Assembly (NCBI RefSeq): GCF_016906995.1
Contig: NZ_JAFBBD010000004.1
Coordinates: forward strand, 310,001 to 374,000
Source: Spongiibacter marinus
GTDB lineage: Bacteria; Pseudomonadota; Gammaproteobacteria; Pseudomonadales; Spongiibacteraceae
Length of the DNA stretch: 64,000 nucleotides
Direction of reading: 5' to 3'
Below, one piece after another: positions 1,117-38,824 of the stretch. Both the position numbers and the translations under genes were made by a program. The notes under the pieces are model-generated. The model saw only the letters and a program-made list of their open reading frames with translations. It was not told the DNA's origin and did no database searches. Numbering within the stretch: position 1 is the first letter of the stretch; the number at the start of each line of letters is the position of its first letter.

Positions 1117-1878
1117 CTAGAAGCCGTCGGGGCGCAGCATGGCGTCGTGTCCGCCATCGACAAAAATAATAGCGCCAGTCATGTAGTCGGCACCCGGCCC
1201 AAGTAAAAAACTCACCACATCGGCAATTTGCTTAGGCTGACCAATACAGCCCAGGGGCACACTGTCACCGAAATCTCGCATTGCCTGACCAAGCTCGGCA
1301 TCGGCCAGTACCTTTTCGCTCAGAGGCGTTTGCACGATACCCGGCGCAACCGCATTGATGCGAATACCGCGTCGCGCCAACTCGCCACTGCGGCGACGCA
1401 GCCAACAGCAGATGGCGTGCTTGGAACCGGCATAGGCGGAATGGGTATCGCGACTATCGGCCAGTTCGCAAGCCGCTTCCTCCTCGCCGTCGAGCAGCAA
1501 TTCCACGTAATCGTTCAGAGGCACCATCGGCGCGGAGTTCGAGGCAATCATCAACACGCGGCCGCCACGTGGTTCCAGCAAGTCCAGCACGCCTTCGGTC
1601 ACGGCGACCGCCGCAAAATAATTGATGCGCGCAATCAGCGACGGCGGCTTCACCGATGGCCCGACACCCGCGCAAGGGATAAAACCATCTATGCCTTCCG
1701 GGCAAAGCTGGCGAATACCGTCGATCGCTCTCTGACGGCCATTGTAGTCGCTCAGGTCCGCACAGATATCGGCATCGCGTAAATCCACCGACACAACGCG
1801 ATGCCCCGCGTCGCAGAGCTGCTCGCGAATCGCTGCCCCGATGCCAGTGGCACCGCCTGTCATTGCATAGACTGCCAT
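1117..1878 (-). CDS. hsdA: SDR, probable 3-alpha-hydroxysteroid dehydrogenase/carbonyl reductase (HsdA-like)
   Basis: Short-chain dehydrogenase of 253 residues expected to interconvert 3-alpha-hydroxy- and 3-oxo-steroids with NAD(H). The N-terminal TGGATGIG cofactor loop starts at residue 7. The catalytic Tyr149 and Lys153 sit in YAGSK, with serines at 113 and 115. Several stretches match my memory of Comamonas testosteroni 3-alpha-HSD: the RDAD..ADLS segment after the first Rossmann unit, the CAGVGP turn, the long acidic insertion before the catalytic Tyr, and the DGGxDAMxRP C-terminus. Length is also near that enzyme's 257. It lies 23 bp downstream of fbiC, so it probably shares the F420 operon transcript. 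Substrate stereochemistry is inferred; a generic SDR cannot be excluded. Confidence 0.75.
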   Translation of the reverse strand: MAVYAMTGGATGIGAAIREQLCDAGHRVVSVDLRDADICADLSDYNGRQRAIDGIRQLCPEGIDGFIPCAGVGPSVKPPSLIARINYFAAVAVTEGVLDLLEPRGGRVLMIASNSAPMVPLNDYVELLLDGEEEAACELADSRDTHSAYAGSKHAICCWLRRRSGELARRGIRINAVAPGIVQTPLSEKVLADAELGQAMRDFGDSVPLGCIGQPKQIADVVSFLLGPGADYMTGAIIFVDGGHDAMLRPDGF

Positions 1879-1901: not shown

Positions 1902-4352
1902 TTAGCCGCTGGCAATTAATTGACGCTTACTGCGTTCATACTTGCTCGCCGGCGTATTGACCGCAACCGCCAAACGCTCGGCATGCCGGGCCCGTTCCAT
2001 CTGCGTCGTATCGGCCTGGCCGTAGAGGGTGTTACGTTGACGAGCAACGCGCCCCATCGCCGCGATGCGCTGCTCCATTTCCTGAGGCGATGTCTCTTCG
2101 CCATGGCTAGCACCAGCGGCCCGGGTGATGGTTTCATTCATCAGCGTCCCGCCGAGGTCGTTAACCCCGGCATTCAAACAGGCCATAACCCCTTCCGCGC
2201 CCATTTTCACCCAGGACGCCTGAATATTGTCGATCAAGCCATTAAAGACCAAGCGTGCGACCGCATGCATCAGCAGCGATTCGCGGAACGTTGGCCCGCG
2301 ACGAGCACGCCCTTTCAAATAGATTGGCGATTCTGCGGCGACAAAAGGCAGCGGCACGAATTCAGTAAAACCGCCTGTTTTCAGCTGTAACGCGCGTATT
2401 GCCAGCAGGTGATTGGCCCAGTGCTCGTAGCCGTCAACGTGGCCGAACATAATTGTGGCGGTTGTTGGCAAACCAACTCCATGGGCAACTTCCATGACCT
2501 GAAGCCACTGTTCGGTATTAATTTTATCGGGGCACAACACCGCCCTGACCCGGTCATCCAACACTTCGGCAGCGGTTCCAGGCAGACTGTGCAACCCCGC
2601 CGCCTTTAATTGCCGCAGGTAATCCTCCAGCGGCATACCGAGCGTCTGAGCACCCTGCCAGACTTCCAGTGGCGAGAAGGCGTGGATGTGCATTGCCGGC
2701 GCCGCCTCGCGCAGCGTCGCCAATATATCCAGATAGGTCTGCCCGGTATATTCAGGATGAATGCCACCCTGCATACACACTTCGGTGGCACCGCGCTGCC
2801 AGGCCTCTTTAGCGCGCCGGGCGATTTCGTCGGCACTCAGGTCATAGGGTCGGCCACGCAAATTCTCACTGAGCTTGCCCTTAGAGAAAGCGCAAAACTG
2901 GCACTTGAAATAACAGACATTGGTGTAATTGATGTTGCGATTGACAACATAACTAACGGTATCGCCACAGCGCCGCTCGCGCAGGCGGTCCGCTGCTTGG
3001 CAAACGGCGGCAAAGTCTTCACCGCGCGCTTGAAACAAGCTGACAATATCCTGTTGAGTTAACCGCTGCTCAGCCTCTGCTCGCTGTAAAATATCGGCAA
3101 CAGCGGCACTTGCAACAGGCCGGCGCTTAGCAAGCAATGCAAGCTCCGCCGCGGGCGCATCAGCGGCCTGCCCGGTCAGCCATTCGTCCACCCTCGGCAG
3201 GCCCTGGCCATCCACACGACTAAGTAGGCGCGGCACCAATGCGGGGTCCAGCCAATGCTGCGCCCGTCGGACATAAGAGGGGTAGATTGTCAGGCGCTCG
3301 TGCAGGTATTTACCACTTAGCGCCGTTTCCTTGGCCAAGCGCTCCACGTGTGGCCACGGCGCTTCGGGGTTCACAAAGTCGGGCGTCACTGGCGACACGC
3401 CGCCCCAATCATTGATCCCGGCAGCAACGATCTGCGGCAGCACACCGGGGCTGAGGTTTGGTGGCGCTTGAATGCTCATTTCCGCCCCAAATATCAACCG
3501 AGCGACGGCGATCGTCCATAGCAAGTCATTGAGATCGGGCTCGGGTGCCGACGCCATTTTAGTGCCTTCCTTGGCGCGAAAATTCTGCACGATCACTTCT
3601 TGCAAATGGCCAAACTCGCTGTGAACGTCTCGCAGGGCAAGCAGAGAATCAATGCGCTCAGCGCGGGTCTCGCCAATACCGATTAAGATGCCCGAGGTAA
3701 ACGGCACCCTCGCTTGGCCAGCGCGGCGCAGGGTTTGCAATCGCGCCTCAGGGGTTTTATCGGGCGAACCGTAGTGAGGCATGCCCTTTTCACACAGGCG
3801 CTCCGATGCCGACTCCAACATAATGCCCATAGACGCAGATACCGGACGCAGCAGAGCGATCTCATCTTCGCTCATGCAGCCCGCATTGATATGCGGTAGA
3901 ACCGATGTTTCCGCCAAGACCCGCCCCGCAACATGGGCGAGATATTCCAGAGTGCTTGCAAATCCCATCTGCGCGAGCGCTTCACGCGCGGCCTTATAAC
4001 GCAGCTCAGGGCGCTCACCCAGGGTAAACAAGGCTTCTTTGCAGCCCAGTCTTTCGGCCTCACGCACCTGCTCAATCACGTGCTCGACCGGCATGTACGC
4101 CTGCTCGATACGCTTGGGGGTTTTGGCGAAGGTGCAGTAGTGGCAAACATCGCGACACAGCTGGGTAAGGGGAATAAAGACTTTGCGGGAATAACTCACG
4201 CCGCTCCCGAAGCCCCGGTCTCGCAAGGTCGCTGCCGCTGTCGCCAGCGTGGCGGTATCTTCGCAGCGACTGAGTTGTCGAGCCTGCTCATCGCTGAGCG
4301 AGCCGTGCAAGGCCGTCTCTAGAAGGGCGTCAATCGACATAGAATTCATCAT
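1902..4352 (-). CDS. fbiC: FbiC: fused CofG-CofH, 7,8-didemethyl-8-hydroxy-5-deazariboflavin (Fo) synthase
   Basis: A single 816-residue polypeptide carries both radical-SAM halves that build the deazaflavin chromophore Fo of coenzyme F420 from tyrosine and 5-amino-6-ribitylaminouracil. The N-terminal half is CofG-like, with its 4Fe-4S cysteines C66, C70 and C73 (CRDVCHYC). The C-terminal half is CofH-like, with C480, C484 and C487 (CYFKCQFC) after the NINYTNV stretch. The fused order matches actinobacterial FbiC, whereas archaea and cyanobacteria usually have two proteins. The start ATG overlaps the cofC stop (TGATG), so translation is probably coupled. Function is confident from the motifs; activity still depends on the neighbouring cof genes. 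Confidence 0.95.
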   Translation of the reverse strand: MMNSMSIDALLETALHGSLSDEQARQLSRCEDTATLATAAATLRDRGFGSGVSYSRKVFIPLTQLCRDVCHYCTFAKTPKRIEQAYMPVEHVIEQVREAERLGCKEALFTLGERPELRYKAAREALAQMGFASTLEYLAHVAGRVLAETSVLPHINAGCMSEDEIALLRPVSASMGIMLESASERLCEKGMPHYGSPDKTPEARLQTLRRAGQARVPFTSGILIGIGETRAERIDSLLALRDVHSEFGHLQEVIVQNFRAKEGTKMASAPEPDLNDLLWTIAVARLIFGAEMSIQAPPNLSPGVLPQIVAAGINDWGGVSPVTPDFVNPEAPWPHVERLAKETALSGKYLHERLTIYPSYVRRAQHWLDPALVPRLLSRVDGQGLPRVDEWLTGQAADAPAAELALLAKRRPVASAAVADILQRAEAEQRLTQQDIVSLFQARGEDFAAVCQAADRLRERRCGDTVSYVVNRNINYTNVCYFKCQFCAFSKGKLSENLRGRPYDLSADEIARRAKEAWQRGATEVCMQGGIHPEYTGQTYLDILATLREAAPAMHIHAFSPLEVWQGAQTLGMPLEDYLRQLKAAGLHSLPGTAAEVLDDRVRAVLCPDKINTEQWLQVMEVAHGVGLPTTATIMFGHVDGYEHWANHLLAIRALQLKTGGFTEFVPLPFVAAESPIYLKGRARRGPTFRESLLMHAVARLVFNGLIDNIQASWVKMGAEGVMACLNAGVNDLGGTLMNETITRAAGASHGEETSPQEMEQRIAAMGRVARQRNTLYGQADTTQMERARHAERLAVAVNTPASKYERSKRQLIASG

Positions 4353-5074
4353 CAGCTTCTCACTACTCGCGGCGACTCAACCGCCGCGCACTCACGAGGA
4401 TTCATCTGCAATAAGCGGCGCGCAATACCACTTTCACTCAGGTAGCGCATCGTTTGCGGGGCGCGACTGGAGGTGCCTGCACTCACCAGCGCTAGCAGGT
4501 CCTCACGGGTGTCGATATCGTTGGCCAGGCCCGGCGCGCGGAACACTTGAAGCGACAGATTGCGCGCCGCCGCCTCTGCGGTGTGGGCAGTTAAACTGCC
4601 CTCCCCATAGCGCAAGCGGATTCGGCTTGCTAAGGGCATCAACACAACATTACTGCCACCGCCGTGGCGATCCGTGGCGATAACCACTTGTTCGCTTGCC
4701 CCGCCTTGCACCGCAATAAGGTCACGCAGCTCAGCCGCGCTCAATAAAGGCAAATCACCGTGCACAATCATGACGCGCTGCGGAGGCTTATCCAAGCAGG
4801 AGATTCGATCCAGGGTCGCCTCCAACACCGCATTCAAACCGCTGCCCAGCTGCGATTCCGGCCAGCAAAGTGCGTGAAAGTGCTCGGCAAGCAAATGCGC
4901 CGCTGGGTCGTCAGACACAATCAACAGCTGATCCACTTCATCGACCGCCGATAGCTGGGCCAATACATCTTCCACCATGTGCTGAAACAAGGCCCGCCGC
5001 TCCGATATGCTCAAACACCCGGACAAGCGCTGTTTCGCTTTAACAAAATCCTTCAGTGGGAGTATTAACCACAT
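4352..5074 (-). CDS. cofC: CofC/FbiD: guanylyltransferase activating the F420 phospho-acid
   Basis: Nucleotidyltransferase of 240 residues that joins GMP from GTP to a three-carbon phospho-acid, giving the activated donor for CofD. Recognisable CofC motifs include LPLKDFVKAKQRL at the N-terminus, HGDLPLL (metal-binding acidic pair) near residue 104, ATDRHGGGSN, GEGSLTAHTAEA and LANDIDTREDL. In characterised lineages the substrate is 2-phospholactate (archaea), phosphoenolpyruvate (mycobacteria) or 3-phosphoglycerate (Paraburkholderia/Mycetohabitans). Which one applies here cannot be settled by eye. The C-terminal tail of about 40 residues after LANDIDTREDL looks longer than the core fold needs. 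It follows cofD by 3 bp and overlaps fbiC by one base. Confidence 0.92.
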   Translation of the reverse strand: MWLILPLKDFVKAKQRLSGCLSISERRALFQHMVEDVLAQLSAVDEVDQLLIVSDDPAAHLLAEHFHALCWPESQLGSGLNAVLEATLDRISCLDKPPQRVMIVHGDLPLLSAAELRDLIAVQGGASEQVVIATDRHGGGSNVVLMPLASRIRLRYGEGSLTAHTAEAAARNLSLQVFRAPGLANDIDTREDLLALVSAGTSSRAPQTMRYLSESGIARRLLQMNPRECAAVESPRVVRS

Positions 5075-5077
5075 CGC

Positions 5078-6034
5078 CTACACCAATTCCTCAATCAACG
5101 ACAGCGTCTCCTCGGCCAAACGCCGTTTGCTATCAAGAGTGGTCATCATACTTGGCACAGCTCGGCAGGCGACCCCCGTCTGGGCGATGTCATCGCACTG
5201 CTGAGCATCGGCACTGTCGATGATAAAGCCGTCCAGCAGGTCGCAGTAGTACTCAGCCACCGCCGCCGCCCTGCGGGGTATATCGAGCTCGTGCATCATT
5301 TTTGCAGCAGGGCCCTTCACCGCCGCGCCAGACACAATGGGCGAAATAGCGACCACCGGCACGTTCACTTGCATAAGCGCCTCGCGACACCCCGGCAAGG
5401 ATAGAATCGGGTCGACGCTCAGAAATGGGTTAGATGGACAAATAATGATGCCGCGCAAGGCAGGGTCGGCAAGCGCGGAGATAATCGCCGGGTTGAGCTG
5501 CGCCGTATCGAGGCCGTCGAAAACGACCTTCTCCACTCGGGGCTCACAGCGCTCGCGAACAAAGTATTCCTGGAAGGCGAGTTCACCCATATCAGTAAAC
5601 ACTCGCGTTGCTACGCGCTGTTCGGTCATGGGCAGCAGCGCCGCGGGACAGCCCAGGCGCTCGCCCAACTGACGAGTGACATCCGTTAACGACTGCCCCG
5701 CCGCCAGCGCTTGAGTGCGGTACAAATGCGTCGCCAAATCGCGATCGCCCAACTGGAACCACTGGCCGTCGTCGAGTCGACGCATCGCTTCCAGCGTTAC
5801 CCAGCTTTCATCGCGCAATCCCCAGCCGCGCTGTTCGTCATTCAGGTCTGCCAGGGCGTATAGATTGGAGTCGAGGTCGGGGCAAATTCGTAAGCCCCAG
5901 TAGTCGAAGTCATCGGCCGTATTCACCACCACTTGCAGCTGCGATGGTGGCAGGCACTCGGCCAAGCCCCTCACTAATTTGGCGCCGCCAACGCCCCCGC
6001 TCAGTGCGAGAAATTTTCCCGATAACGTCGCCAT
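5078..6034 (-). CDS. cofD: CofD/FbiA: 2-phospho-L-lactate transferase family
   Basis: Protein of 318 residues that moves the activated phospho-acid moiety from the CofC product onto Fo, giving F420-0 or dehydro-F420-0. Diagnostic stretches are LSGGVGGAKLVRGL at residues 12-25, VNTADDFDYWGL, PDLDSNLYALA with the following GWGLRDESW, and the conserved PSNPFLSVDPIL loop near residue 200. Length is normal for the family. The start ATG overlaps the cofE stop by one base (TAATG), and cofC begins 3 bp after its stop. It is unfused and looks intact. Whether the product is the saturated or dehydro form depends on CofC and is not visible here; no FbiB-type reductase domain is found nearby. Confidence 0.93.
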   Translation of the reverse strand: MATLSGKFLALSGGVGGAKLVRGLAECLPPSQLQVVVNTADDFDYWGLRICPDLDSNLYALADLNDEQRGWGLRDESWVTLEAMRRLDDGQWFQLGDRDLATHLYRTQALAAGQSLTDVTRQLGERLGCPAALLPMTEQRVATRVFTDMGELAFQEYFVRERCEPRVEKVVFDGLDTAQLNPAIISALADPALRGIIICPSNPFLSVDPILSLPGCREALMQVNVPVVAISPIVSGAAVKGPAAKMMHELDIPRRAAAVAEYYCDLLDGFIIDSADAQQCDDIAQTGVACRAVPSMMTTLDSKRRLAEETLSLIEELV

Positions 6035-6804
6035 TAGCGAAACATATCCCGGTCGCGGTCGCGCAATAAGCCCTGCGAGCCCTCGTCAGAGGGGCGCAAG
6101 TTAGCACCGCGCAGCAGCACCACCGGACAGCCCTCATCGGCCTGCCCCATCAGGTAAGACGCCGCCGCAGCAAGCTCGTCGGCGACGGCAATTTCAGTGA
6201 CTTCGAGAGTGCGGCCGAACAAATCGGCATCGCCTATGCGGTTTTCAACAACCTCGAAGCCGGCAGTGCCGAGCGCAAAGCCCACCGTGCCATTGCGCCA
6301 GGCCCGCCCCGCACTGTCGTTAATGATCACCGCAATATTTGCCGAAAAACGTGCGTCCAGCGCCGCCTTTAAACGCCGCGCACTGGCATCGGGGTCAATG
6401 GGTAACAGCAGCAACTGGGGGTCGTCTTCAGTATTGGGGATATTCGACTTGTCGATGCCAGCATTTGCGTGAACCACCCCGAGGCGATGCTCCACAATCA
6501 CCACACCCGGACGCGCCCGCAGCACCTCCCGTGACTCCTGGAGCACGCATTCCATTTGCCGCGGGTCCTTGTCGCAGCGCTGCGCCAGTGCCAGCGCTTC
6601 TTCACTGGGAGAGACATCAGACAAGCGAACATAGCGCCCTTCCGCCTTGGAGAAGATCTTCTGCGCAAGCACCAGCACATCGCCGTCTTGCAGGCTTAGC
6701 TGATTGCCGAGCAGCGAATCAGCCACCATGGCGCTCAAGTCGTCTCCTGGCTCCACCAGCGGGAAATTCTGCAAGGCAACTAGCTGTAATTGCGAACTGG
6801 CCAT
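6034..6804 (-). CDS. cofE: CofE: coenzyme F420-0 gamma-glutamyl ligase
   Basis: Stand-alone CofE of 256 residues that adds gamma-linked glutamate to F420-0 using GTP. Family motifs are LAQKIFSKAEGR near residue 46, the VVHANAGIDKSNIP metal/nucleotide loop, and NDSAGRAWRNG where most homologs have SDS; the Asn is a small departure. It lacks the C-terminal nitroreductase-like domain found in mycobacterial FbiB. The poly-glutamate tail may therefore be short, and a dehydro intermediate would need another reductase; that is inference. Spacing to the preceding reductase gene is 9 bp and it overlaps cofD by one base, so it is inside the operon. Confidence 0.93.
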   Translation of the reverse strand: MASSQLQLVALQNFPLVEPGDDLSAMVADSLLGNQLSLQDGDVLVLAQKIFSKAEGRYVRLSDVSPSEEALALAQRCDKDPRQMECVLQESREVLRARPGVVIVEHRLGVVHANAGIDKSNIPNTEDDPQLLLLPIDPDASARRLKAALDARFSANIAVIINDSAGRAWRNGTVGFALGTAGFEVVENRIGDADLFGRTLEVTEIAVADELAAAASYLMGQADEGCPVVLLRGANLRPSDEGSQGLLRDRDRDMFR

Positions 6805-6813
6805 CTGTGCAAC

Positions 6814-7488
6814 TTACTCGTCGACACCCGTGAGTTTAATGCCAGCATGACACTGGTATTGTTTGTTTATAAATATCAGCAGAGAGGTCATCGCCTCCAC
6901 TGCCGCCGCATTGGCGATACTGCCGGCGTGGAAACCGCGCAGCCCGGCGGCTTCAACCAGGTTAATAACCGTTGCCCGCGCTTCTTTATTGTTGCCGCAA
7001 ACCAGGACATCACAATCGAGCTCGGAGCCCTCCTGCAGATGTACGGCCGCCACATTCTGAAAGGCCGACACCACCTTGACGTCGTCGCCGAGAATCTCCT
7101 GCGCGATCTGTCCAGCAGAGCCTTCCTCAGGCAGTTGCACCCGCGCCACTTTGGGCGGCACCAGGGGAACCGTCACATCGATCAGGATCTTGCCCTGCAG
7201 CGCGCCGCGTAGTGACTCCAGTGTGCTGCGATGGTGGGCAAAAGGTACGGTCAACGCGGCAATATCTGCCGCCTCAGCCGCCGATTGATTATCCATCGCC
7301 TCGACTGCGACGGCGTCGACCCCGCGCTCATCCATCAATGCCTTGAGCTCAGCAACCGCTTGCTCGGCCTTCTCTTGGGTGCGAGAACCGATAATCACGC
7401 GGTAACCCGCCTGGGCCCAGCGTCTGGCTAAGCCTGTACCCAAATTACCGGTACCGCCTAAAATCGCAATTACTGCACTGTTGGACAT
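6814..7488 (-). CDS. npdG: NADPH-dependent F420 reductase (Fno/NpdG-like)
   Basis: Predicted F420H2:NADP+ oxidoreductase, about 224 residues. It supplies reduced F420 from NADPH or runs in reverse. The N-terminal Rossmann loop reads ILGGTGNLGTGLARR, followed by the GSRTQEKAEQ segment that fits NADP phosphate binding. The C-terminal half carries FQNVAAVHL and the CDVLVCGNN stretch typical of this family. I place the start at the ATG at 7486-7488, which has an AAAGG box 8 bases upstream; an in-frame GTG at 7519-7521 would add 11 residues without a better ribosome site. It is the first gene of the F420 operon, so its promoter lies in the divergent gap before 7768. Confidence 0.88.
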   Translation of the reverse strand: MSNSAVIAILGGTGNLGTGLARRWAQAGYRVIIGSRTQEKAEQAVAELKALMDERGVDAVAVEAMDNQSAAEAADIAALTVPFAHHRSTLESLRGALQGKILIDVTVPLVPPKVARVQLPEEGSAGQIAQEILGDDVKVVSAFQNVAAVHLQEGSELDCDVLVCGNNKEARATVINLVEAAGLRGFHAGSIANAAAVEAMTSLLIFINKQYQCHAGIKLTGVDE

Positions 7489-7767
7489 ATCACATACCTT
7501 TATCTTTATGTTGAAACTCACGACTGGACGCTATCGCCGACGAACACAGCGGCAGGCTCCCAGCACATCAAATCGATCGCCAGTATAACGTGGGCACTAT
7601 AACTGGCACTGACAAAACAAGTCATTTACGCATAAAAATACGGTCATATTAAATCGTGGGCTAAAGCGATAAACTGTCGCCCAAAAATGTCGCGGCGATT
7701 ATTGGCTCGCAAGAAGCCAAGCCGCCGCAAACACTAACATGACAGGGCACAAGGTAGGTAAAAAGGA
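7489..7767. promoter_or_regulatory. Divergent promoter region between the F420 operon and an SDR gene
   Basis: A non-coding gap of about 280 bp separates the leftward F420 operon from the rightward SDR gene, so it must hold promoters for both. The part around 7620-7660 is AT-rich compared with the flanks and is the likeliest promoter core. A TATAAC hexamer occurs twice (near 7577 and 7590). I could not identify convincing -35/-10 pairs or a perfect operator by eye. Confidence 0.5.
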
Positions 7768-8547
7768 ATGCAAAACGCACTGGATTTTACGGGTAAAGTC
7801 GTCATCGTTACCGGCGGCGGGAAAGGTGTTGGCCGCGGTATCAGCGAACGGTTTTTGGCTGCCGGGGCAGACGTAGCGATCTGCGGTCGCAGTAAACCCG
7901 ACAGCCTACCCAGTGCTGAGGGTCGGGAAGCGTGGTTCAGCGCGCTGGATGTTCGCGACCCGGACGCGGTCCAGGCCTTTGTCGACAGCGTGAAAGAGAA
8001 GTTTGGTCGCATCGACGTGCTGATCAACAACGCTGGCGGCGCCCCCTATGCCGATGCGGCCACCGCCTCGCCACGGTTTTCTGAATCCATCGTGCGTCTC
8101 AATCTGCTCGCGCCACTCTTCTTTGCCCAGGCCTGCAATGCGGTGATGCAGCAGCAGGAAGGCGGCAGCATCGTCAATATTGCCTCAGTGAGCGCCCAGC
8201 GCCCGTCGCCGGGTACCGCCGCCTACGGCGCAGCGAAAGCCGGCCTGTTAAACCTGAGCAGCTCCCTAGCCGTGGAATGGGCGCCCAAGGTCCGTAGCAA
8301 CACGATTATTGCCGGCCTGATTCGCACTGAACAGTCCCATTTGCACTACGGCGACGAAGCCGGGATTGCGGCAGTGGGCGAAACGATCCCACTGGGACGA
8401 ATGGCGGTTCCCAACGATATTGCCGGGGCCTGTTTATTCCTGGCCAGTGACATGGCCAGCTACGTGAGCGGTGCAGCGCTCACCGTGCACGGCGGCGGTG
8501 AAAAGCCCGCGTTTTTGGGCGTCGCTAACGCCGACAACGAAAAATAA
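7768..8547 (+). CDS. SDR family oxidoreductase
   Basis: Classical short-chain dehydrogenase of 259 residues. The cofactor loop TGGGKGVGRGI lies near residue 15, NNAGG near 90, the catalytic Ser in IASVSAQ, and Tyr/Lys in YGAAKAG. The C-terminal HGGGEKPAFL ending recalls SDRs seen in actinobacterial steroid and lipid catabolism, but I cannot name an ortholog. Substrate is therefore unassigned; a 3-hydroxyacyl or hydroxysteroid compound is a reasonable guess from the neighbourhood. It is divergent from the F420 operon and converges on pyk. The ATG has AAGG directly adjacent and AGGTAGG further upstream, so the start is slightly uncertain. Confidence 0.8.
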   Translation: MQNALDFTGKVVIVTGGGKGVGRGISERFLAAGADVAICGRSKPDSLPSAEGREAWFSALDVRDPDAVQAFVDSVKEKFGRIDVLINNAGGAPYADAATASPRFSESIVRLNLLAPLFFAQACNAVMQQQEGGSIVNIASVSAQRPSPGTAAYGAAKAGLLNLSSSLAVEWAPKVRSNTIIAGLIRTEQSHLHYGDEAGIAAVGETIPLGRMAVPNDIAGACLFLASDMASYVSGAALTVHGGGEKPAFLGVANADNEK

Positions 8548-11948: not shown

Positions 11949-13097
11949 TTAAATGAAGAAGTCGCCGTTTTCCATACCCAGAGCAACGCCGCCGAAGTTA
12001 CGGCCAAAGCCGGTGGGGTTGTTAGCAACGTGGGCACGGGCGGTGTGCACATCACGGAAACGCTGCTGAATTTCACTGTTATTGAATACCGAGTGACCAC
12101 CGGCCACTTCAAACAGTGAATCGACAATATCGATGCTCTTGCTGATAACCAGAGACGCCTGGTAGCGATAGCGAACACGGTCTTCCAGAGGAATCTCTTC
12201 GCCGCGCTCAATTTGCGCCAACATCACATCGAAGTTACGGAAGAGAATGGTCTCCATCTCGTCGATACCGTTTAGGGCCGCCGCAATGCGCTCTACCACC
12301 TGGGTGTCGCCCGCGAGTTTAGTGGGGTCACCACTGGCTTTATTCAACACCGCGTGCTTGTAGAGCTCCACGGTCGCCTTACAGGCACCGATAGCCGGGG
12401 TCGAGACAACGCGAATAAAGCTCTGCGCCCAAGGCAGGCGGTATAAGGGCGCGTCGTTCACAGCCAAACCGGGGTTTGTTCCCGCGAAGCCATCGCTTTG
12501 CTTGTGGGTCATGTAGTCGGGCACAAATACGTCGTCTACCACGATGTCGTTGCTGCCAGTGCCTTCCAAGCCCATCGACTGCCAAGTATCGATAATTTCG
12601 TAGTCGCTGCGCGGCACCAAGAAAGTACGGTAGCCCTCGCCCGGTACGATTGCGCCCAGCAGCACCCAGGTGCAGTGGTCGCTACCACTTGACCAGCCCC
12701 AACGACCGCTGAGTTTAAAACCGCCTTCGGTGGGCGTCACTTTACCCATCGGCGCATAGGAGGAAGAAATACGTGTATGGATCGAGTCGTTCCACACGGC
12801 CTGCTGCGCGCGGTCGTCCATCATCGCCAGCTGCACGGCGTGAACCGCGATAATGCCACTGGCCCATGCCGTCGACATACACGCCTCGGCGATGGCGATT
12901 TGCAGTTTAAAGAATTCTTGCGGCTTCATTTCCAAGCCGCCGTAGCGCTTGGGCTGTAGGCTCAGGAAAAAGCCCGCATCTTGCAGGGCATCAATCGAGG
13001 CCTGAGGCACTTTACGTTCTTGGCGCGTTTGCGGTGCACGCTCACGAAATACTGGCTGCAATTCTTTGATTGCAGCCATCATGGTTTCAAAATTCAT
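11949..13097 (-). CDS. hsaA: HsaA-like 3-HSA 4-hydroxylase, oxygenase component (flavin-dependent monooxygenase)
   Basis: Protein of 382 residues with the acyl-CoA-dehydrogenase fold used by two-component flavin monooxygenases. The proposed job is to hydroxylate 3-HSA (the phenolic product of steroid B-ring opening) to the catechol 3,4-DHSA. Visible features are ERAPQTRQERKVP near the N-terminus, FFLSLQPKRYGGLEM, a WGWSSGSDHC motif around residue 130, and DVHTARAHVANNPTGFGRNFGG at the C-terminal active-site end. The reductase partner HsaB is not in the window. An ATG at 13095-13097 is preferred over the adjoining GTG because the AGGAGA box is better spaced. It is third in the kshA-hsaC-hsaA unit, ahead of a terminator. 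Exact substrate is inferred from the neighbours. Confidence 0.85.
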   Translation of the reverse strand: MNFETMMAAIKELQPVFRERAPQTRQERKVPQASIDALQDAGFFLSLQPKRYGGLEMKPQEFFKLQIAIAEACMSTAWASGIIAVHAVQLAMMDDRAQQAVWNDSIHTRISSSYAPMGKVTPTEGGFKLSGRWGWSSGSDHCTWVLLGAIVPGEGYRTFLVPRSDYEIIDTWQSMGLEGTGSNDIVVDDVFVPDYMTHKQSDGFAGTNPGLAVNDAPLYRLPWAQSFIRVVSTPAIGACKATVELYKHAVLNKASGDPTKLAGDTQVVERIAAALNGIDEMETILFRNFDVMLAQIERGEEIPLEDRVRYRYQASLVISKSIDIVDSLFEVAGGHSVFNNSEIQQRFRDVHTARAHVANNPTGFGRNFGGVALGMENGDFFI

Positions 13098-13190
13098 CAC
13101 CGCTCTCCTGTTGTATTCTGTCTTTGGTCTTATGATTTACCGCCCACTACCCCATTACGCGGTGCAGCGGGCAAAGGATTTTGCCGGGCT

Positions 13191-14102
13191 TTAGGCGTCA
13201 GGCATGTTGAACTTGTGCCCCCAGAGGCTGGGCAGCGAGGTCACGGTTGGCGTGAAATCGTCCCAATCCACCTGCAAACCACCGGTGCCAAACTCCATGG
13301 CGAAGCCTGTTGGCGTTGCCATGTAGAACGACAGCATCCGGTCATTGGTATGGCGCCCTAGGGTCGAAACAATGGGAATTCCCGCGGCTTCAACGCGATC
13401 CAGGCAGTAACCCACTTCATCGGTGTCCTTCACTTCCAGCATAAGGTGAACACAGCCCACCGGGTTGCTGCTGTCTTCGTATAGCGCAAGACTGTGGTGA
13501 CGAGGGTTGTTCACGTGCATGAAGTTCAAGCCCTGACCGGGGTCATTAGGGTCTGGCGAGAAGTGAAAGTGCATGTAGTCACTGTCACCAAAGCCGAGCA
13601 CGTCTTTGTAGAACGTGTGCGTTTCGCTGAGCTTAGCTGCTGGCAGCACGGCATGCCCCAGGCCCATGTCGCCATTGAAACCCGTTTCAAAGCCACTGAT
13701 ACCCAGTGGTGAAACAAATTTAGCAAAGTCCAGTTCGCCGCCCCAATAAAGCTCCAGCTCGTTACCCGAGGGGTCTTTCAATACGATCAATTCGCGCACG
13801 CGCCGCGCCTTGGCATCGTCGCCGCTACCCTCTTCAAAGGCGACTCCCGCCTCGGTCAAGCGCTGCTTGGCATCGGCAAAGTCTTGCGCATCACGCAGTT
13901 CCCAGCCGCAGCGGCTCAGTCGCTCCGCGTCACCTTTGACAATGGCAAAGCGAAACGGACGCTCATCTATTTTCAAGTAAACATTGCCGTCGTCCGGCAT
14001 ATTCGGCGCAGGCATCAGGCCGAGAATGTCCCGACCGTACTCCAACCACTTCGACGGCTCTGCCGACTCGATTACGACGTAGCCTAAACTGCGTACATCC
14101 AT
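13191..14102 (-). CDS. hsaC: HsaC-like extradiol dioxygenase (3,4-DHSA 4,5-dioxygenase)
   Basis: Type I extradiol dioxygenase of 303 residues with two vicinal-oxygen-chelate modules. It is expected to cleave the catechol ring of 3,4-DHSA (meta cleavage) using Fe(II). The metal ligands are visible as His150 in MGLGHAVL, one of His202/His203 in NNPRHHSLAL, and Glu270 in AMEFGTGG, with the conserved Tyr260 ahead of it. Family enzymes include BphC and HsaC; KshA next door and HsaD/E/F/G nearby favour the steroid substrate over biphenyl. It starts 46 bp after kshA, which suggests one transcript. Confidence 0.9.
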   Translation of the reverse strand: MDVRSLGYVVIESAEPSKWLEYGRDILGLMPAPNMPDDGNVYLKIDERPFRFAIVKGDAERLSRCGWELRDAQDFADAKQRLTEAGVAFEEGSGDDAKARRVRELIVLKDPSGNELELYWGGELDFAKFVSPLGISGFETGFNGDMGLGHAVLPAAKLSETHTFYKDVLGFGDSDYMHFHFSPDPNDPGQGLNFMHVNNPRHHSLALYEDSSNPVGCVHLMLEVKDTDEVGYCLDRVEAAGIPIVSTLGRHTNDRMLSFYMATPTGFAMEFGTGGLQVDWDDFTPTVTSLPSLWGHKFNMPDA

Positions 14103-14148
14103 GCGTTTATCCTGTGTTATCGATTATTAAATTCGCTGCACAATGCCA

Positions 14149-15213
14149 TTAGCCATTGCGAATGGCGTAATCCACTGTGTACTCACGGCGCTCGTTAAAG
14201 ACCTCAGGTACATCCGCACGATCCACGTAGAACTGGTTGTACCACTGACGCAGGCGGTTGATTGGGCCGTCGCCGTCACACAATACCGGGTTATCAACAC
14301 GGGTTTTGGTATGCCAGATATGTACATCCTGGAAGAACGCCGTCCGGTTCTGCTCCGTGTACTGACGTGCCATCTCGTTGTTCTGCTCGTCACTCATACC
14401 CGGGATTTTCTTAACCGCCACACCAAACCGCAGGTCAAAGCTATTATGGTCGATGGGAACATGGGTCACCAGCAAGCGCGACTCCACGTCCATACCTTCT
14501 ACCTGGCCAGTCATGTACGTGTTCATGTATGCCGGACCGAAGTATTTGGCACTGGAAGTTAGCTCGCCATCTTCCGCCAACAGCTCGCTGCCGCCGACCA
14601 GTACTTGTTCATAGGTATGCTTGTGAACAATGTTCTTGAACTCTTTGATAGGCGCGCCGTGAATCGGCCCAAAATGCGCCACATCTGCCATGTTATCCAC
14701 CAGCTCGCGGCTGTTGGTATTGATGGTCATCAGATCCATTTGCCAGATCGTCCAGTCCGGACTGAACAGGTCATCGATGCGCGGCGGGCGCTGGTCTTCG
14801 ATAGGAGGCAGCCCCTCTGGGTCGTACCACATGAATAACAAGTGATTCTCTTCCAGCGTTGGATAGCTGCGGATAACCGCTTTCGGGGGAATGCGCTTGG
14901 CGTAGGGGATCTCATCGCACACACCATCGGCGCCCCAGCGCCAGGAGTGGAATGGGCAACGAATGGAGTTACCCTCCACGCAACCTTCGCTCAAGTCTGC
15001 CCCCATGTGAGGGCAGTAGCCGTCGAGAATATGGACTTGACCATCTTCCCCGCGATACGCAACCATGCGGGTGCCAAAGTAGTTTAGCTTGACCGGCTTT
15101 TCATCGTATTCGCTGGCCAGCCCCAAACAATACCATCCCCGCCCATAGCGGTCTGGCAATTCCTTAGCTTCGATAATATGGGGCTGACGCGGTGCCTGCG
15201 CGGGCTCGCTCAT
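14149..15213 (-). CDS. kshA: KshA-like 3-ketosteroid 9-alpha-hydroxylase, Rieske oxygenase component
   Basis: Rieske non-haem iron oxygenase of 354 residues. The 2Fe-2S ligands are C67/H69 (CPHMGADL) and C86/H89 (CPFHSWRWG). The mononuclear iron site is N174-M-A-D177..H180..H185 (DNMADVAHFGPIH). Stretches shared with known KshA proteins include RYGRGWYCLGLA, LDGYCPHMG, the FQDVHIWHTKTRVDNP segment and LRQWYNQFYVD. Together with a 3-keto-delta1 dehydrogenase it opens steroid ring B. The ferredoxin reductase KshB and KstD are not in this window. It is the first gene of the kshA-hsaC-hsaA unit, with an AGGAGAGAAAA box before its ATG. Confidence 0.93.
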   Translation of the reverse strand: MSEPAQAPRQPHIIEAKELPDRYGRGWYCLGLASEYDEKPVKLNYFGTRMVAYRGEDGQVHILDGYCPHMGADLSEGCVEGNSIRCPFHSWRWGADGVCDEIPYAKRIPPKAVIRSYPTLEENHLLFMWYDPEGLPPIEDQRPPRIDDLFSPDWTIWQMDLMTINTNSRELVDNMADVAHFGPIHGAPIKEFKNIVHKHTYEQVLVGGSELLAEDGELTSSAKYFGPAYMNTYMTGQVEGMDVESRLLVTHVPIDHNSFDLRFGVAVKKIPGMSDEQNNEMARQYTEQNRTAFFQDVHIWHTKTRVDNPVLCDGDGPINRLRQWYNQFYVDRADVPEVFNERREYTVDYAIRNG

Positions 15214-19227: not shown

Positions 19228-20256
19228 TTAGAGCAAGCCGCGTTCCTTAGCCATGTCGAGTGCCAAGTCTTCAATCATATCTTCCTGTCCACCAACGGTG
19301 CGGCGGCGGCCAAGCTCAACCAGTATATCCCGGGCCGACACACCGTACTTCGCTTCGGCGCGTTTAGCGAACAACAAGAAAGATGAGTATACGCCCGCGT
19401 AGCCCAGAGTCAGGGAGTCCCGGTCGATACGGATGGGATGATCCATAATGGGAGTCACGCGGTCTTCGGCGACATCCATAATTTTATACAGATCAATACC
19501 GTGATCCGCGCCCATACGATCAAGCACAGCCACCAATACCTCCAGCGGCGTATTGCCTGCACCGGCGCCCAGGCCGGCTACAGAGCCATCGATACGGTTA
19601 GCACCGTGCTCGATTGCCACCAGCGAGTTCGTGACGCCCAGGCTCAGGTTGTGGTGAGCGTGGAAGCCCAGCTCGGTTTCTGGCTTCAGCTCGCTGCGCA
19701 ACAGCGCAATGCGCTCTTGCACCTGATCGGGCAGCATATAGCCAGCGGAATCGGTGCAGTAAATACAGTTGGCACCGTATGATTCCATCAATTTGGCTTG
19801 CTCGACGATTTCCTCAGCGCCAATCATATGGGTCATCATCAAGAAGCCCACGGTATCCAAGCCCATCTCACTGGCCATGCCAATGTGCTGCTCTGATACA
19901 TCCGCTTCGGTGCAATGCGTCGCCACGCGGATGGTTGATACACCGAGATCAGCGGCCATTTTCAAATGGTCGACCGTACCAATACCGGGCAGCAACAGCG
20001 CCGAAATTTTTGCATTCTTAACCGCACCGATTACGGCCTTCAGGTATTCTTCATCGCTGTGCGCTGGGAAACCATAGTTAACCGAACTACCACCCAAACC
20101 GTCACCATGAGTCACTTCGATCAGTGGCATGCCCGCCTCATCGAGGCCACTGGCAATACTGACCATTTCATCCAGAGAAATCTGGTGACGCTTAGCGTGC
20201 ATACCATCGCGCAAACACATGTCGTGCAGAACGACTTTCTTACCTTGAATATCCAT
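19228..20256 (-). CDS. hsaF: 4-hydroxy-2-oxovalerate aldolase (HsaF/DmpG family)
   Basis: Aldolase of 342 residues that splits 4-hydroxy-2-oxo acids into pyruvate and an aldehyde passed to its partner HsaG. Motifs are [15 protein letters not shown] near residue 10 (metal-binding Asp and catalytic region), [23 protein letters not shown] with the metal-binding His pair, and [15 protein letters not shown]. The ATG at 20254-20256 has AGGGGAT upstream and sits 10 bp after the hsaG stop; an earlier in-frame start lies inside hsaG and is unlikely. It is the last gene of the operon before a strong terminator. Confidence 0.93.
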
Positions 20257-20266
20257 GACTATCCCC

Positions 20267-21175
20267 TCAGGCGGCCGATGGTGAAAAACGGCCTGCCAGA
20301 ATCTCTTCGGCAAACATCTCTGCGGTGCGCAGGCCCGCGGCGGTCATAATATCGAGGTTACCCGCATACTTGGGCAGGAAGTCCCCGAGCCCCTCTACTT
20401 CCATAAACATGGAGACGCGATTGCCATCGAAAACGGGACCATTTTTCAAACGGTAACCCGGTACGTATTTTTGAACCTCGGCAACCATGTCATCCACCGA
20501 TTTGCGAATCGCCTCTTGATCCGGCTCGTCGTCAGTCAAACAGTGAATGGTGTCGCGCATAATCAGCGGTGGCTCTGCCGGGTTAATCACGATAATCGCC
20601 TTACCCTGACGAGCGCCGCCCACTTTCTCTACCGCGCCCGCCGTTGTGCGGGTGAATTCGTCGATATTTTTACGTGTGCCGGGCCCCACAGACTTGGAGC
20701 TTACTGTGGCAACAATTTCGCCGTAGCTCACCGACTGCACGCGCGACACGGCTGCGACCATTGGAATGGTTGCCTGTCCGCCACAGGTCACCATATTCAC
20801 ATTCATGCACTTTTCGGCCACTGCATCGCTGAGGTTGACCGGTGGGATACAAAATGGGCCGATCGCCGCCGGCGTCAGATCGATCATCAACGCACCCTGC
20901 TCGTTCACTTTGCGCGAGTTCTCGGCGTGAACATAGGCTGAGGTTGCATCAAAACAGATTTGCACACCGTCCTCACGCATGGTCGGCAACATACCATCCA
21001 CACCTTCCGAGGTGACCTTCATGCCCATTTCTTTGGCGCGGGCCAAGCCGGGTGATTCGGGGTCAACACCGACCATCCAAACGGGTTCAATCAGCTCCGA
21101 GCGCATTGCCTTCATCAGCAGGTCGGTCCCAATATTGCCCGGCCCGATGATGGCCGCGCGAATTTTTTCAGCCAT
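20267..21175 (-). CDS. hsaG: Acylating acetaldehyde/propanal dehydrogenase (HsaG/DmpF family)
   Basis: Enzyme of 302 residues that oxidises the aldehyde from HsaF to an acyl-CoA with NAD+ and CoA. The NAD loop is [11 protein letters not shown] near residue 9, and the catalytic Cys131 lies in [31 protein letters not shown] and the C-terminal [11 protein letters not shown] match the DmpF family. In steroid degraders the substrate is propanal, giving propionyl-CoA; in aromatic degraders it is acetaldehyde. The ATG at 21173-21175 is preferred over an upstream GTG. It forms a channelling complex with HsaF in known systems. Confidence 0.93.
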
Positions 21176-21248
21176 AAGATTTCTCACTGTCAGTAGAGCA
21201 CCGCTATGTGCTCCGAATAGGTAGATGTTGTTGTTCTAGATCTAGCAA

Positions 21249-22034
21249 TTAGACGAAATGCACTTCTGCATCGCCGATGCCTTCCAGCTCCATGCGCAGG
21301 CTGTCACCTGCTTGCACCGGCTCCAGCGGTACCAGAGAACCAGAGAGAATCACCTCTCCCGCTTTGAACGGAATACCAAAGCGCCCCAGCGTATTTGCCA
21401 GCCACGCCACCGCGGTTAATGGGTTACCCTGCACCGCACTGCCCAAGCCTTCACTGAGAATTTCACCGTTTTTCCATACGCGAATTTTCAATGCGGGCAG
21501 GTCAAAGTCTTTGGGGTCTGCCTCTTGCTCACCCAGCACATAAACACCGCAGGAGGCGTTGTCCGCCACGGTGTCCTGAATGGCAATTTTCCAATTGTCG
21601 ATACGCGAATCAACAATCTCAAAACAGGGCATAATGGCGTCGGTTGCGGCCAATACATCCGCCTCCGTAACGCCGGGGCCTTGCAGGTCTTTCTTCAACC
21701 GAAAACCGATCTCCGCCTCGGCACGGGGGGAAATCAAATGACCGGCTACCGGCACTTTTGCACCATTGGCAAAGGTCATGGCGTCGGTTAAAAAACCAAA
21801 GTCCGGCTGGTGTACGCCGAGCATTTCCTGCACCACTTTACTGGTAACACCGATTTTTTTTCCGACCACCTTCTCCCCGTCTTCTTGACGGCGGTTAAGC
21901 ATGCGCAGGGAGATGTAGTAGGCATCGTCAATGGTAATGTCCGGCTCACGCTCGGTCAGCGGGGCAATGCTTTGCTGGCTGCGCAGGGCGTTGTAGAGCT
22001 CATCACCCAATGCATTGATCTTGGCGCTATCCAT
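21249..22034 (-). CDS. hsaE: 2-hydroxypenta-2,4-dienoate hydratase family (HsaE/TesE-like)
   Basis: Hydratase of 261 residues that adds water to a 2-hydroxy-2,4-dienoate, giving the 4-hydroxy-2-oxo acid for HsaF. Conserved features are VGKKIGVTSKVVQEMLGVHQPDFGFL near residue 60, the acidic metal-binding stretch AEAEIGFRL, MPCFEIVDSRI and DNASCGVYVLG. In steroid systems the substrate is 2-hydroxyhexa-2,4-dienoate. It begins 3 bp after the hsaD stop, and a gap of 73 bp with a 10-bp CTAGATCTAG palindrome at 21236-21245 separates it from hsaG. Confidence 0.92.
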   Translation of the reverse strand: MDSAKINALGDELYNALRSQQSIAPLTEREPDITIDDAYYISLRMLNRRQEDGEKVVGKKIGVTSKVVQEMLGVHQPDFGFLTDAMTFANGAKVPVAGHLISPRAEAEIGFRLKKDLQGPGVTEADVLAATDAIMPCFEIVDSRIDNWKIAIQDTVADNASCGVYVLGEQEADPKDFDLPALKIRVWKNGEILSEGLGSAVQGNPLTAVAWLANTLGRFGIPFKAGEVILSGSLVPLEPVQAGDSLRMELEGIGDAEVHFV

Positions 22035-36002: not shown

Positions 36003-36728
36003 TCAAGGTGCCCAGTACACGCTGATCGGTACATTCTGCCCGAACAGGGCGGCAACCGGGGCAGCGTGATCAGCATACAGTGCCCGCTCCAGTACGTGCC
36101 GCTTCTCCTCACCGCAGATTTGCAGCACCAATTCGCTGCAATTGAGTAAACGCGGCAGTGTCAAGCTCAATCGCGGGTAGGGGCTCGCGGCGGTTTCCAG
36201 CGCCATACACGGCAGTGCAGAAGCCATATCCAAAGCCGCGTCGAGCTGCGGGCTGTCGGGAAACAATGAGGCGCAGTGTCCGTCACTACCCATGCCCAAT
36301 ACGACGCGATCAAAGCTGGGCATGGCGCCTAAGGTTAGGTTCGCAAGGGCAGCGTCTTGTTCGGCTGACTCAGTGTGCGGCGACTTAAGTGGTACGAAGT
36401 GCGCCGCAGCCGCTGGCCCGCGAAACAGCCGCTCCCGCAATAGCCGTTCATTACTATCGCGGTTATCACTATCGACCCAGCGCTCATCGGAGAGCGTCAC
36501 GGTCACTTTCGACCACTCCACAGCCTCATCGGCCAGCAGTTCCAGCAGACGCTCGGGCGTGGTGCCGCCGGGCAGGACGAGGCTTGCCGCCCCGCTAACG
36601 CGAATACCCGCCGCCAGCGCCAGACTGAGGTCGTCACACAATGCCGCGGCCTGAGACTCACGGCAGCTGAAGCTCAACAGCCTTGCCCCTACTTGATTGA
36701 GGCGCCGCTCTAACAGGTGCTCATTCAT
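36003..36728 (-). CDS. pgl: 6-phosphogluconolactonase
   Basis: Protein of about 241 residues hydrolysing 6-phosphogluconolactone to 6-phosphogluconate. Family features are LVLPGGTTPERLLELL, VTLSDERWV, and the VVLGMGSDGHCASLFP loop, all characteristic of the NagB/Pgl (DevB) fold. The ATG at 36726-36728 overlaps the zwf stop by 8 bases and has GGAG 5 bases upstream, so translation is likely coupled. It is the last gene of the edd-eda-zwf-pgl series. Confidence 0.93.
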   Translation of the reverse strand: MNEHLLERRLNQVGARLLSFSCRESQAAALCDDLSLALAAGIRVSGAASLVLPGGTTPERLLELLADEAVEWSKVTVTLSDERWVDSDNRDSNERLLRERLFRGPAAAAHFVPLKSPHTESAEQDAALANLTLGAMPSFDRVVLGMGSDGHCASLFPDSPQLDAALDMASALPCMALETAASPYPRLSLTLPRLLNCSELVLQICGEEKRHVLERALYADHAAPVAALFGQNVPISVYWAP

Positions 36729-38172: not shown

Positions 38173-38824
38173 TCACCCCCATCGATGCCCGCAAGGTCTG
38201 TGCACGCTTGGCTGCCACAGTCGCTCGCTCGCGAATGGCCGGCCAGTTTTCCTCTGCCTGAAGCGCTGGCGGCGCGATCCACGACCCTCCCATACAGGCC
38301 ACTGATGGCAGGGCCAGGTAGTCCGCCATATTGTCCAGACTGACACCGCCCGTTGGACAAAAACGCATCATTGGCAGCGGCCCGGCAAGCGCCTGCAAAA
38401 CCTTCGCTCCGCCCATCGCCTCGGCGGGGAAAAACTTCACAAGATCTATGCCCTGCTCCAGACAGCGTATCGCCTCCGTCGCGGTGGCGACCCCAGGCAT
38501 ATAGGGCAAGTCACTGTCGGCACAGCAAGCCATCAACGCCTCGGTCGCGCCGGGCGTAACAAGAAACTCACTCCCCGCCGCGCGCGCCCGCTTTACATCG
38601 TGCGCGTTCAACAGCGTTCCGGCACCAACGCACACGCCGTCGACCCGCTGTCGAATCACATCTATCGCTTCCAGCGCCGCCGATGTTCGCAGCGTCACTT
38701 CCAGTACCGGCAGGCCACCATCACGCAAGGCGATAGCCAACGGCTCTGCGTATTCCGGGCGGGGCACGCTCAATACCGGAATAATCGGCGCGCGGCTGAC
38801 AATCTGCATCATTGTGTTACTCAT
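38162..38824 (-). CDS. eda: KDPG aldolase
   Basis: Entner-Doudoroff aldolase of 220 residues splitting 2-keto-3-deoxy-6-phosphogluconate into pyruvate and glyceraldehyde-3-phosphate. Visible motifs are LEVTLRTSAAL with the conserved Glu, VGAGTLLNAHDV, the Schiff-base Lys in DLVKFFPAEAMGG, and FCPTGGVSLDN. It overlaps edd by 8 bases. Confidence 0.96.
   Translation of the reverse strand: MSNTMMQIVSRAPIIPVLSVPRPEYAEPLAIALRDGGLPVLEVTLRTSAALEAIDVIRQRVDGVCVGAGTLLNAHDVKRARAAGSEFLVTPGATEALMACCADSDLPYMPGVATATEAIRCLEQGIDLVKFFPAEAMGGAKVLQALAGPLPMMRFCPTGGVSLDNMADYLALPSVACMGGSWIAPPALQAEENWPAIRERATVAAKRAQTLRASMGVNGE

Follow-up and report, generated by a model that had tools for sequence, protein, structure and literature searches.

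According to a 2021 review, production of coenzyme F420 has been shown in Alpha- and Betaproteobacteria; the review places the FDOR enzymes in Actinobacteria and Chloroflexi and asks why proteobacteria make F420, and a word search of its main text returns neither Gammaproteobacteria nor steroid nor cholesterol (PMC8498797). The closest described systems are the mycobacterial one (FbiABCD, Ddn and Rv3520c), whose Rv3520c is listed among the M. tuberculosis cholesterol genes in passages of two papers (PMC6429209, PMC12855090); the pathway of Mycetohabitans to 3PG-F420, in which 3-phosphoglycerate (3PG) replaces phospholactate; and the plasmid-borne operons of Sinorhizobium meliloti R28 (pSymA) and Aromatoleum aromaticum EbN1 (plasmid 2). 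In Sterolibacterium denitrificans, cofC-cofD-cofE stand beside steroid-catabolism genes, the neighbours listed in the legend to figure 11 being ACS3, a steroid delta-isomerase, short-chain dehydrogenases/reductases (SDRs) and acyl-CoA dehydrogenases; this legend, on which our comparison is based, is the only place in the main text of that paper where the word F420 occurs (PMC6678751). Isolates of Spongiibacteraceae and Halieaceae degrade steroids, and the word F420 does not occur in the paper that reports this (PMC5790920).

We analyzed a stretch of 64 kb (the window) of Spongiibacter marinus that contains the F420 operon npdG-cofE-cofD-cofC-fbiC. The window resembles the mycobacterial system in its fused FbiC and in the Ddn-kind FDOR-A and Rv3520c-kind luciferase-like (LLM) proteins of the same genome, but it has no FbiB-type reductase domain, no Fgd was seen and an NADPH-linked NpdG is present instead, and its FbiC stands away from the main actinobacterial branch. 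It shares the CofC family with the Mycetohabitans pathway, where no FbiB-type reductase is needed either, but its CofC is without the diagnostic Ser/Thr. The plasmid operons of S. meliloti and Aromatoleum hold the same genes with a fused FbiC 59-63% identical to that of the window, and in S. meliloti R28 the five-gene order is the same (its cofE was seen by tblastn only), whereas the operon of the window sits in a 393-kb contig, is near family-wide and is flanked by steroid-type SDRs. The gene set is ordinary in kind; what is added here are consumer candidates that track F420, an FDOR-A in 75 of 390 genomes of a gammaproteobacterial order, and an operon framed by steroid-type SDRs. We propose that this is a working F420 operon, that reductases coded elsewhere in the genome use the F420H2 and that part of it most likely feeds steroid catabolism, a reading to which, as a whole, we assign a probability of about 0.75.

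All five operon proteins passed their curated NCBIfam cut-offs (Table 1), and FO synthase, CofC, CofD and CofE, the set expected of an F420 biosynthesis operon, were all present. The genes are transcribed from 7488 to 1902 with successive spacings of +9, -1, +3 and -1 bp, in agreement with the compact and complete operon that a preliminary description of this DNA had reported. FbiC is a fused protein of 816 residues with intact radical-SAM CxxxCxxC motifs at residues 66 and 480, and both of its parts exceeded their own cut-offs (CofH part, 575.9 bits against 374.1; CofG part, 503.9 against 213.35), whereas CofE, with 256 residues, is a single domain. The ATG at 7488 is most likely the start of npdG, an in-frame GTG at 7521 being the alternative. 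When the five genes and the two flanking SDR genes were compared with those of the nearest relative (L097; G, L and f numbers are our labels for genomes, loci and families), ratios of nonsynonymous to synonymous substitution rates (dN/dS) of 0.00-0.20 were obtained and no internal stops were found there, which indicates that the operon genes are under purifying selection. The operon has a G+C content of 59.0% and the window one of 56.7%, so that composition does not clearly point to a recent foreign origin.

Table 1. Features of the window discussed in the text (window coordinates; scores are bits against the cut-off of the named model unless stated otherwise)
Feature	Position	Strand	Evidence
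SDR3a, homologue of 3alpha-hydroxysteroid dehydrogenase/carbonyl reductase	1117..1878	-	best PDB matches 2dkn (9.4e-55), 1fjh (5.9e-49)
fbiC, fused CofG-CofH FO synthase	1902..4352	-	PRK09234 1139.6 vs 1018; two CxxxCxxC motifs
cofC, guanylyltransferase, Gly157 at 3PG-diagnostic position	4352..5074	-	TIGR03552 135.4 vs 105
cofD, transferase joining FO and activated phosphoacid	5078..6034	-	TIGR01819 300.4 vs 257.45
cofE, coenzyme F420-0:L-glutamate ligase	6034..6804	-	TIGR01916 275.2 vs 180.65
npdG (Fno), NADPH-dependent F420 reductase, first gene of the operon	6814..7488	-	TIGR01915 211.7 vs 149.8
Divergent intergenic region shared by npdG and SDR856	7489..7767		sequence read
SDR856, divergent SDR of the steroid C/D-ring (ipd-type) cluster kind	7768..8547	+	PRK07856 402.3 vs 255
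HsaA-like flavin monooxygenase (steroid ring cleavage)	11949..13100	-	NF045629 369.4 vs 450, below cut-off
HsaC-like extradiol dioxygenase	13191..14102	-	NF045631 275.3 vs 450, below cut-off
KshA-like 3-ketosteroid 9alpha-hydroxylase oxygenase	14149..15213	-	PF19298 KshA_C 239.3 vs 23.3
HsaF-, HsaG-, HsaE-like genes (aldolase, acetaldehyde dehydrogenase, hydratase)	19228..22034	-	TIGR03217 568.2 vs 286; TIGR03215 465.8 vs 282.25; TIGR03220 396.5 vs 408.8

The preliminary description had seen no consumer of F420H2 in the window. This held for the families searched, as none of the nine PF00296, one PF04075 and one PF01243 (L012) proteins of the genome falls inside the window, but its wider statement that the consumer is unknown is true of the window only, since the genome-wide search that it had proposed yielded one FDOR-A and nine LLM proteins. 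Seven of the nine LLMs exceeded a curated F420-type cut-off: L002 and L003 that of the Rv3520c-type family TIGR03559 (381.4 and 412.4 bits against 335), L004 that of TIGR03617, and L005, L006, L007 and L009 that of TIGR03619. The remaining two were L010, below its cut-off (125.8 of 166.9), and L008, of the MsnO8 type. The single FDOR-A (Ddn-like) protein (L011:1408-1902) was recognized both by sequence (PF04075, 130.6 bits against 22; TIGR00026, 105.3 against 46.35; Ddn-type PDB chains matched at 8e-28) and by fold, the five best fold matches being F420-bound structures of the Ddn/FDOR-A type; the model used was built from 18 homologues (predicted local distance difference test, pLDDT, 82.6), the single-sequence model being poor (pLDDT 52.9). 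No LLM lay near the Fgd model, which for L002 and L003 was outside the 25 best, and NpdG is therefore the only known F420 reducer seen in the genome. Among 14 named control genomes, PF04075 matched in none, TIGR03559 matched in 10 but over its cut-off in none, and TIGR01819 (CofD) matched in 6, over its cut-off in 3. An acyltransferase gene adjoining the FDOR-A gene was discarded as a conserved neighbour, as in the 28 FDOR loci compared from other genomes (at most about 1.5 kb per side) only that of the nearest relative (L052) showed it. In another genome (G020, L068), a second FDOR-A gene adjoins a cytochrome P450 36% identical to the P450 of a steroid-type cluster of Tsukamurella.

To relate these enzymes to the F420 genes we used 390 genomes sampled from the order, of which 102 carry CofD: 99 exceed the cut-off, and G058, G289 and G201 were added to them; the 12 weak matches with E between 1.6e-5 and 7.1e-4 were excluded. 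FDOR-A was present in 73 of the 102 CofD-positive genomes against 2 of the 288 CofD-negative ones (75 in total), and the TIGR03559 type (E<=1e-17) in 88 against 3 (91 in total). The strong sets were cut by hand from the match lists: five weak PF04075 matches (G164, G359, G371, G375, G387) were excluded, the table reading 75/39/5/271 when all are kept, and of 269 genomes with a TIGR03559 match at E<=0.001, 91 were kept, 83 of them passing the curated cut-off. A comparison within families, confined to genomes with a known family code, gave the same picture for f1, f40 and f47, where both enzymes were absent from all 8 listed CofD-negative genomes and the 33 CofD-positive ones had FDOR-A in 28 cases and the LLM in all 33. 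Both enzymes occurred in one of four CofD-negative genomes of f13 (G295) and in the sole one of f39 (G213), and the LLM in one of six genomes of f15 (G362), a family with no CofD-positive genome. These data indicate that the consumer candidates track the F420 genes across the order, and for the FDOR-A the shared distribution with CofD indirectly supports a use of F420H2. In f26, f6, f16 and f37, 13 CofD-positive genomes carry neither FDOR-A nor a clear Rv3520c-type LLM, and F420 is therefore used differently there; the one f16 genome examined has a fused FbiC, and one each of f26 and f6 has two separate FO-synthase genes. The latter belong to a second operon type in the order (L121, from G083 of f26; L129, from G154 of f6), in which a pair of separate FO-synthase genes precedes cofD, cofC, cofE and npdG, and whose FO synthase groups with those of Leisingera and Paracoccus.

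The genome that contains the window (3.57 Mb, 29 contigs, rated 99.99% complete) belongs to a gammaproteobacterium, as had been stated: among named records the closest is Neomelitea salexigens DSM 19753 (CofD 97% identical), which the NCBI taxonomy gives as Spongiibacter marinus, family Spongiibacteraceae. An exact short-pattern search found four loci in all, the others, with CofD 59-60% identical, coming from Zhongshania (two records) and Spongiibacter pelagi (one). CofD was present in 19 of the 21 genomes of the family, with the gene order of the operon conserved, so that the "scattered occurrence" assumed for proteobacteria proved wrong for this group. The two family members without CofD (G015 and G018, both of the same genus as the window) also lack FDOR-A, a close KshA (8.2e-28 and no match) and a clear TIGR03559 match (7.4e-5 and 8.1e-7), and FbiC was not found in them, the only matches being at E 1.6e-4 and 3.4e-5. 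In G013 (L105) and G014 (L108), the locus retains cofE-cofD between both SDRs and npdG, cofC and fbiC are gone from it; an FbiC 66-67% identical is located elsewhere (L172, L173), adjoined in G013 by npdG and cofC as read by eye, and groups with families f9 and f14 (support 89 in the Shimodaira-Hasegawa-like approximate likelihood ratio test, SH-aLRT), which suggests that the original fbiC may have been replaced by a transferred copy.

The fused FbiC had been likened to that of actinobacteria. The fusion is real but gives no sign of origin, because long fused FbiCs also occur on plasmids of Aromatoleum, Paraburkholderia, Sinorhizobium, Sphingobium and Agrobacterium, and in the tree that had been called for the protein groups with proteobacterial rows, so that an actinobacterial lineage was not supported. 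This was a quick tree of 54 rows with a midpoint root and no archaeal rows, its named rows being drawn from a plasmid collection only. The protein of the window fell within its own family, which lay among the other Pseudomonadales, with the FbiCs of alpha- and betaproteobacteria next to them; support for the deep proteobacterial grouping was moderate (83-93). Four actinobacterial FbiCs formed a branch of their own (SH-aLRT 100) beyond a split supported at 99, and two further actinobacterial rows, Rhodococcus WAY2 and Miltoncostaea, neighboured the proteobacterial set on branches that were long. These data would be explained best by descent within the order together with some transfer, and they do not fit a recent jump from Actinobacteria.

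As the preliminary description had noted, steroid-type genes lie a few kb upstream of the operon (KshA-, HsaC- and HsaA-like, 11949-15213), but the steroid link turned out to be closer than it stated, both genes that flank the operon being SDRs with steroid-type nearest relatives. SDR3a begins 23 bp after fbiC and is possibly the last gene of the operon transcript; 14 of 18 neighbourhoods of the family have it on this side of the operon, against none of 20 outside, and in L105 and L108 it comes after cofD. On the other side, SDR856 has homologues 57-60% identical in ipd-type clusters of Tsukamurella and Nocardia, next to an enoyl-CoA hydratase, two CoA-transferase subunits and a nitronate monooxygenase, and further homologues in a like cluster of Novosphingobium (the label ipd-type is our reading of the annotated products), which places it among the SDRs of such clusters. 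SDR856 we take to be the counterpart of Rv3549c, and Ddn to be Rv3547, two genes presumably close to each other on the M. tuberculosis chromosome. The region between npdG and SDR856 is a possible place of common regulation of both genes. Among 22 loci its length varied from 97 to 504 bp (starts extrapolated from tblastn). A regulatory palindrome was sought and rejected: the most shared inverted repeat (5-bp arms) was present in 7 of the 22 loci, all of the same family as the window, and short inverted repeats common to several families in at most 3 of the 22, no chance control having been run.

The conservation of SDR856 was followed in 38 neighbourhoods, i.e. the window, those of 17 of the 18 other CofD-positive genomes of its family, and 20 chosen from the 86 other CofD-positive genomes; 36 of them were usable when adjacency was compared with KshA. 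SDR856 adjoined the operon in 24 of the 38, namely 17 of 18 in the family (window included) and 7 of 20 in others (f9, f14, f30, f40 and f47), the adjacent homologues being 70-98% identical. Outside the family, KshA at E<=1e-40 was present in 6 of the 7 genomes with adjacency against 1 of the 13 without it (p=0.0012); the corresponding figures were 7/7 against 3/13 at 1e-30 (p=0.0031), 2/7 against 0/13 at 1e-60 (p=0.11) and 7/7 against 7/13 at 1e-3 (p=0.051). Over the order, where KshA counts were 116 at E<=0.001, 77 at 1e-40 and 46 at 1e-60, close KshA (E<=1e-60) occurred in 30 of 102 CofD-positive against 16 of 288 CofD-negative genomes (15/86 against 16/286 outside the family), which reveals a moderate link between KshA and CofD. 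Elsewhere in the genome (L090:8139-19801), the LLM L009 adjoins two SDRs and a KshA-like Rieske oxygenase, with a TonB receptor and a second KshA-like gene further on; among loci chosen by KshA-like matches, the LLM, the SDRs and both KshA-like genes were found together in all 7 genomes of the genus examined, and the LLM in none of 10 KshA-like loci outside the genus. In the window, the names of the HsaA-, HsaC- and HsaE-like proteins, whose scores are below the NCBIfam cut-offs, are given by likeness, and a steroid role of the HsaE/F/G-like genes is assigned by position only. Further along the window (36003-40655), genes for 6-phosphogluconolactonase, glucose-6-phosphate dehydrogenase, 2-keto-3-deoxy-6-phosphogluconate aldolase and a dehydratase stand in a row, a possible source of NADPH.

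In the pathway that we propose, FbiC would make FO, CofC and CofD would attach a three-carbon phosphoacid, CofE would add the glutamate tail and NpdG would reduce the resulting F420 with NADPH. F420H2 would then supply enzymes whose genes lie elsewhere in the genome, one Ddn-like FDOR-A and about seven hydride transferases of the LLM type, and part of it would most likely feed low-potential reductions (C=C or C=O) in the catabolism of steroids or steroid fragments, because the operon lies between two steroid-type SDRs and amid steroid-type genes, and because an LLM adjoins KshA-like genes. That F420 is made and used in this organism we regard as very probable indeed. Its use in steroid catabolism is plausible but unproven, and whether steroids are one of its main uses is close to an even question on which we lean slightly to the negative; which reductase acts on what we infer.

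Several observations weigh against this proposal, on its biosynthetic, consumer and steroid sides. The phosphoenolpyruvate (PEP) route, as described in the section of the review that treats it, requires a dehydro-F420 reductase (PMC8498797), and for this enzyme (FbiB C-terminus/FbiE) the best TIGR03553 match in the genome scored only 51.6 bits against a cut-off of 249.55; the matching protein was rejected because it is BluB (233.9 bits against 150), so that a PEP-type pathway with a TIGR03553-type reductase was not found. The operon might instead yield 3PG-F420, as in Mycetohabitans, a pathway said in the passage concerned to require no such reductase (PMC8764529), in line with the failure to find one in the genome, and the best PDB sequence match of CofC is indeed a 3PG-type enzyme, 7p97. 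This match is weak (52.6 bits), however, and the residue given there as diagnostic for 3PG use, S162 of Mrhiz-CofC, and the helper residues M91 and C95 (PMC8764529) do not occur in the CofC of the window, which has Gly157 where 3PG-using enzymes have Ser/Thr and Leu at the M91 and C95 positions; in 40 related CofCs, the S162-equivalent residue was Gly in 37, Asp in 2 and Asn in 1, and Ser/Thr in none. We therefore consider 3PG-F420 improbable. With the 3PG residue absent and no known reductase over its cut-off, the last part of the pathway has to be completed either by a reductase of unrelated type or by a supply of 2-phospholactate of unknown origin.

On the consumer side, the TIGR family names are predictions and not assays, and the co-occurrence tables are inflated, with Fisher p-values that overstate, because the genomes are related. 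FDOR-A is absent from 29 of the 102 CofD-positive genomes, including G017 and G019 of the family, and a clear TIGR03559 match is present in three CofD-negative genomes (G213, G295, G362), two of which also have FDOR-A and in none of which FbiC was found; they are drafts 97%, 78% and 78% complete, in 70 to 480 contigs, and either their F420 genes may have fallen into assembly gaps or the organisms may use F420 without synthesizing it themselves. On the steroid side, the proteins scanned around the two best LLMs (3 next to L002 and 10 next to L003) are not encoded by steroid genes, and in Vibrio a homologue of SDR856 faces an enoyl-CoA hydratase gene amid genes for acyl-CoA dehydrogenases, in a stretch where no F420 gene is annotated, so that this type of SDR is not tied to F420. 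Close KshA is absent from 72 of the 102 CofD-positive genomes, 16 genomes have KshA without CofD, and G017 carries the operon with neither KshA nor SDR856; F420 therefore does not need steroids. An alternative is that F420 is made but is a general redox helper, acting in quinone reduction by the Ddn-like enzyme, in stress or in the breakdown of odd compounds, and that its steroid-type neighbours reflect an accidental gene order passed down in a few families. Ddn reduces menaquinone, and so do its homologues in M. smegmatis (PMC8498797), the co-occurrence of KshA with CofD is only moderate, and in f39, where CofD is present in 16 of 17 listed genomes and a clear TIGR03559 match in all 17, KshA at E<=1e-60 occurs in none (best G251, 6.6e-60). 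An accident of gene order accounts less well for SDR856 beside the operon in five other families, tracking KshA at most cut-offs tried, for a steroid-type SDR 23 bp after fbiC, and for the separate F420-steroid adjacency in Sterolibacterium, and we give a purely general role a little under an even chance. That the operon was transferred and is decaying or silent, with no present use, appears very unlikely: two of 21 family genomes are without CofD, and a literature search turned up no report of F420 measured in Spongiibacteraceae, but the dN/dS ratios to the nearest relative are low, the gene order is conserved, the consumers track CofD, and the genes missing from the locus in G013 are present at a second locus.

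Our proposal of a working operon with a share in steroid catabolism can be carried further. Marine Pseudomonadales could regularly draw on F420H2 as an electron donor in steroid catabolism, with the operon, the SDR of C/D-ring clusters and F420-dependent reductases forming one module, and the same link having arisen or persisted in Sterolibacterium and in Actinobacteria, where Rv3520c is among the cholesterol genes. Steroid breakdown would then include an F420-dependent step that has been overlooked, and the operon would, in addition, function with a dehydro-F420 reductase or a source of 2-phospholactate of an unknown kind. We tentatively rate this extension as possible rather than probable.

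Ney et al. 2017 (ISME J) is reportedly the main survey of bacterial F420 genes and may list gammaproteobacteria, and we therefore do not present F420 genes in this class as new to the literature. The present data indicate that such genes are the norm in a family of marine gammaproteobacteria and that 102 of the 390 species sampled from its order carry them, and the FDOR-A and LLM proteins described here are added candidate enzymes for biocatalysis. Because DSM 19753 is a deposited strain with nearly identical genes, and because steroid degraders are known among isolates of its family, the question of what proteobacteria use F420 for becomes testable.

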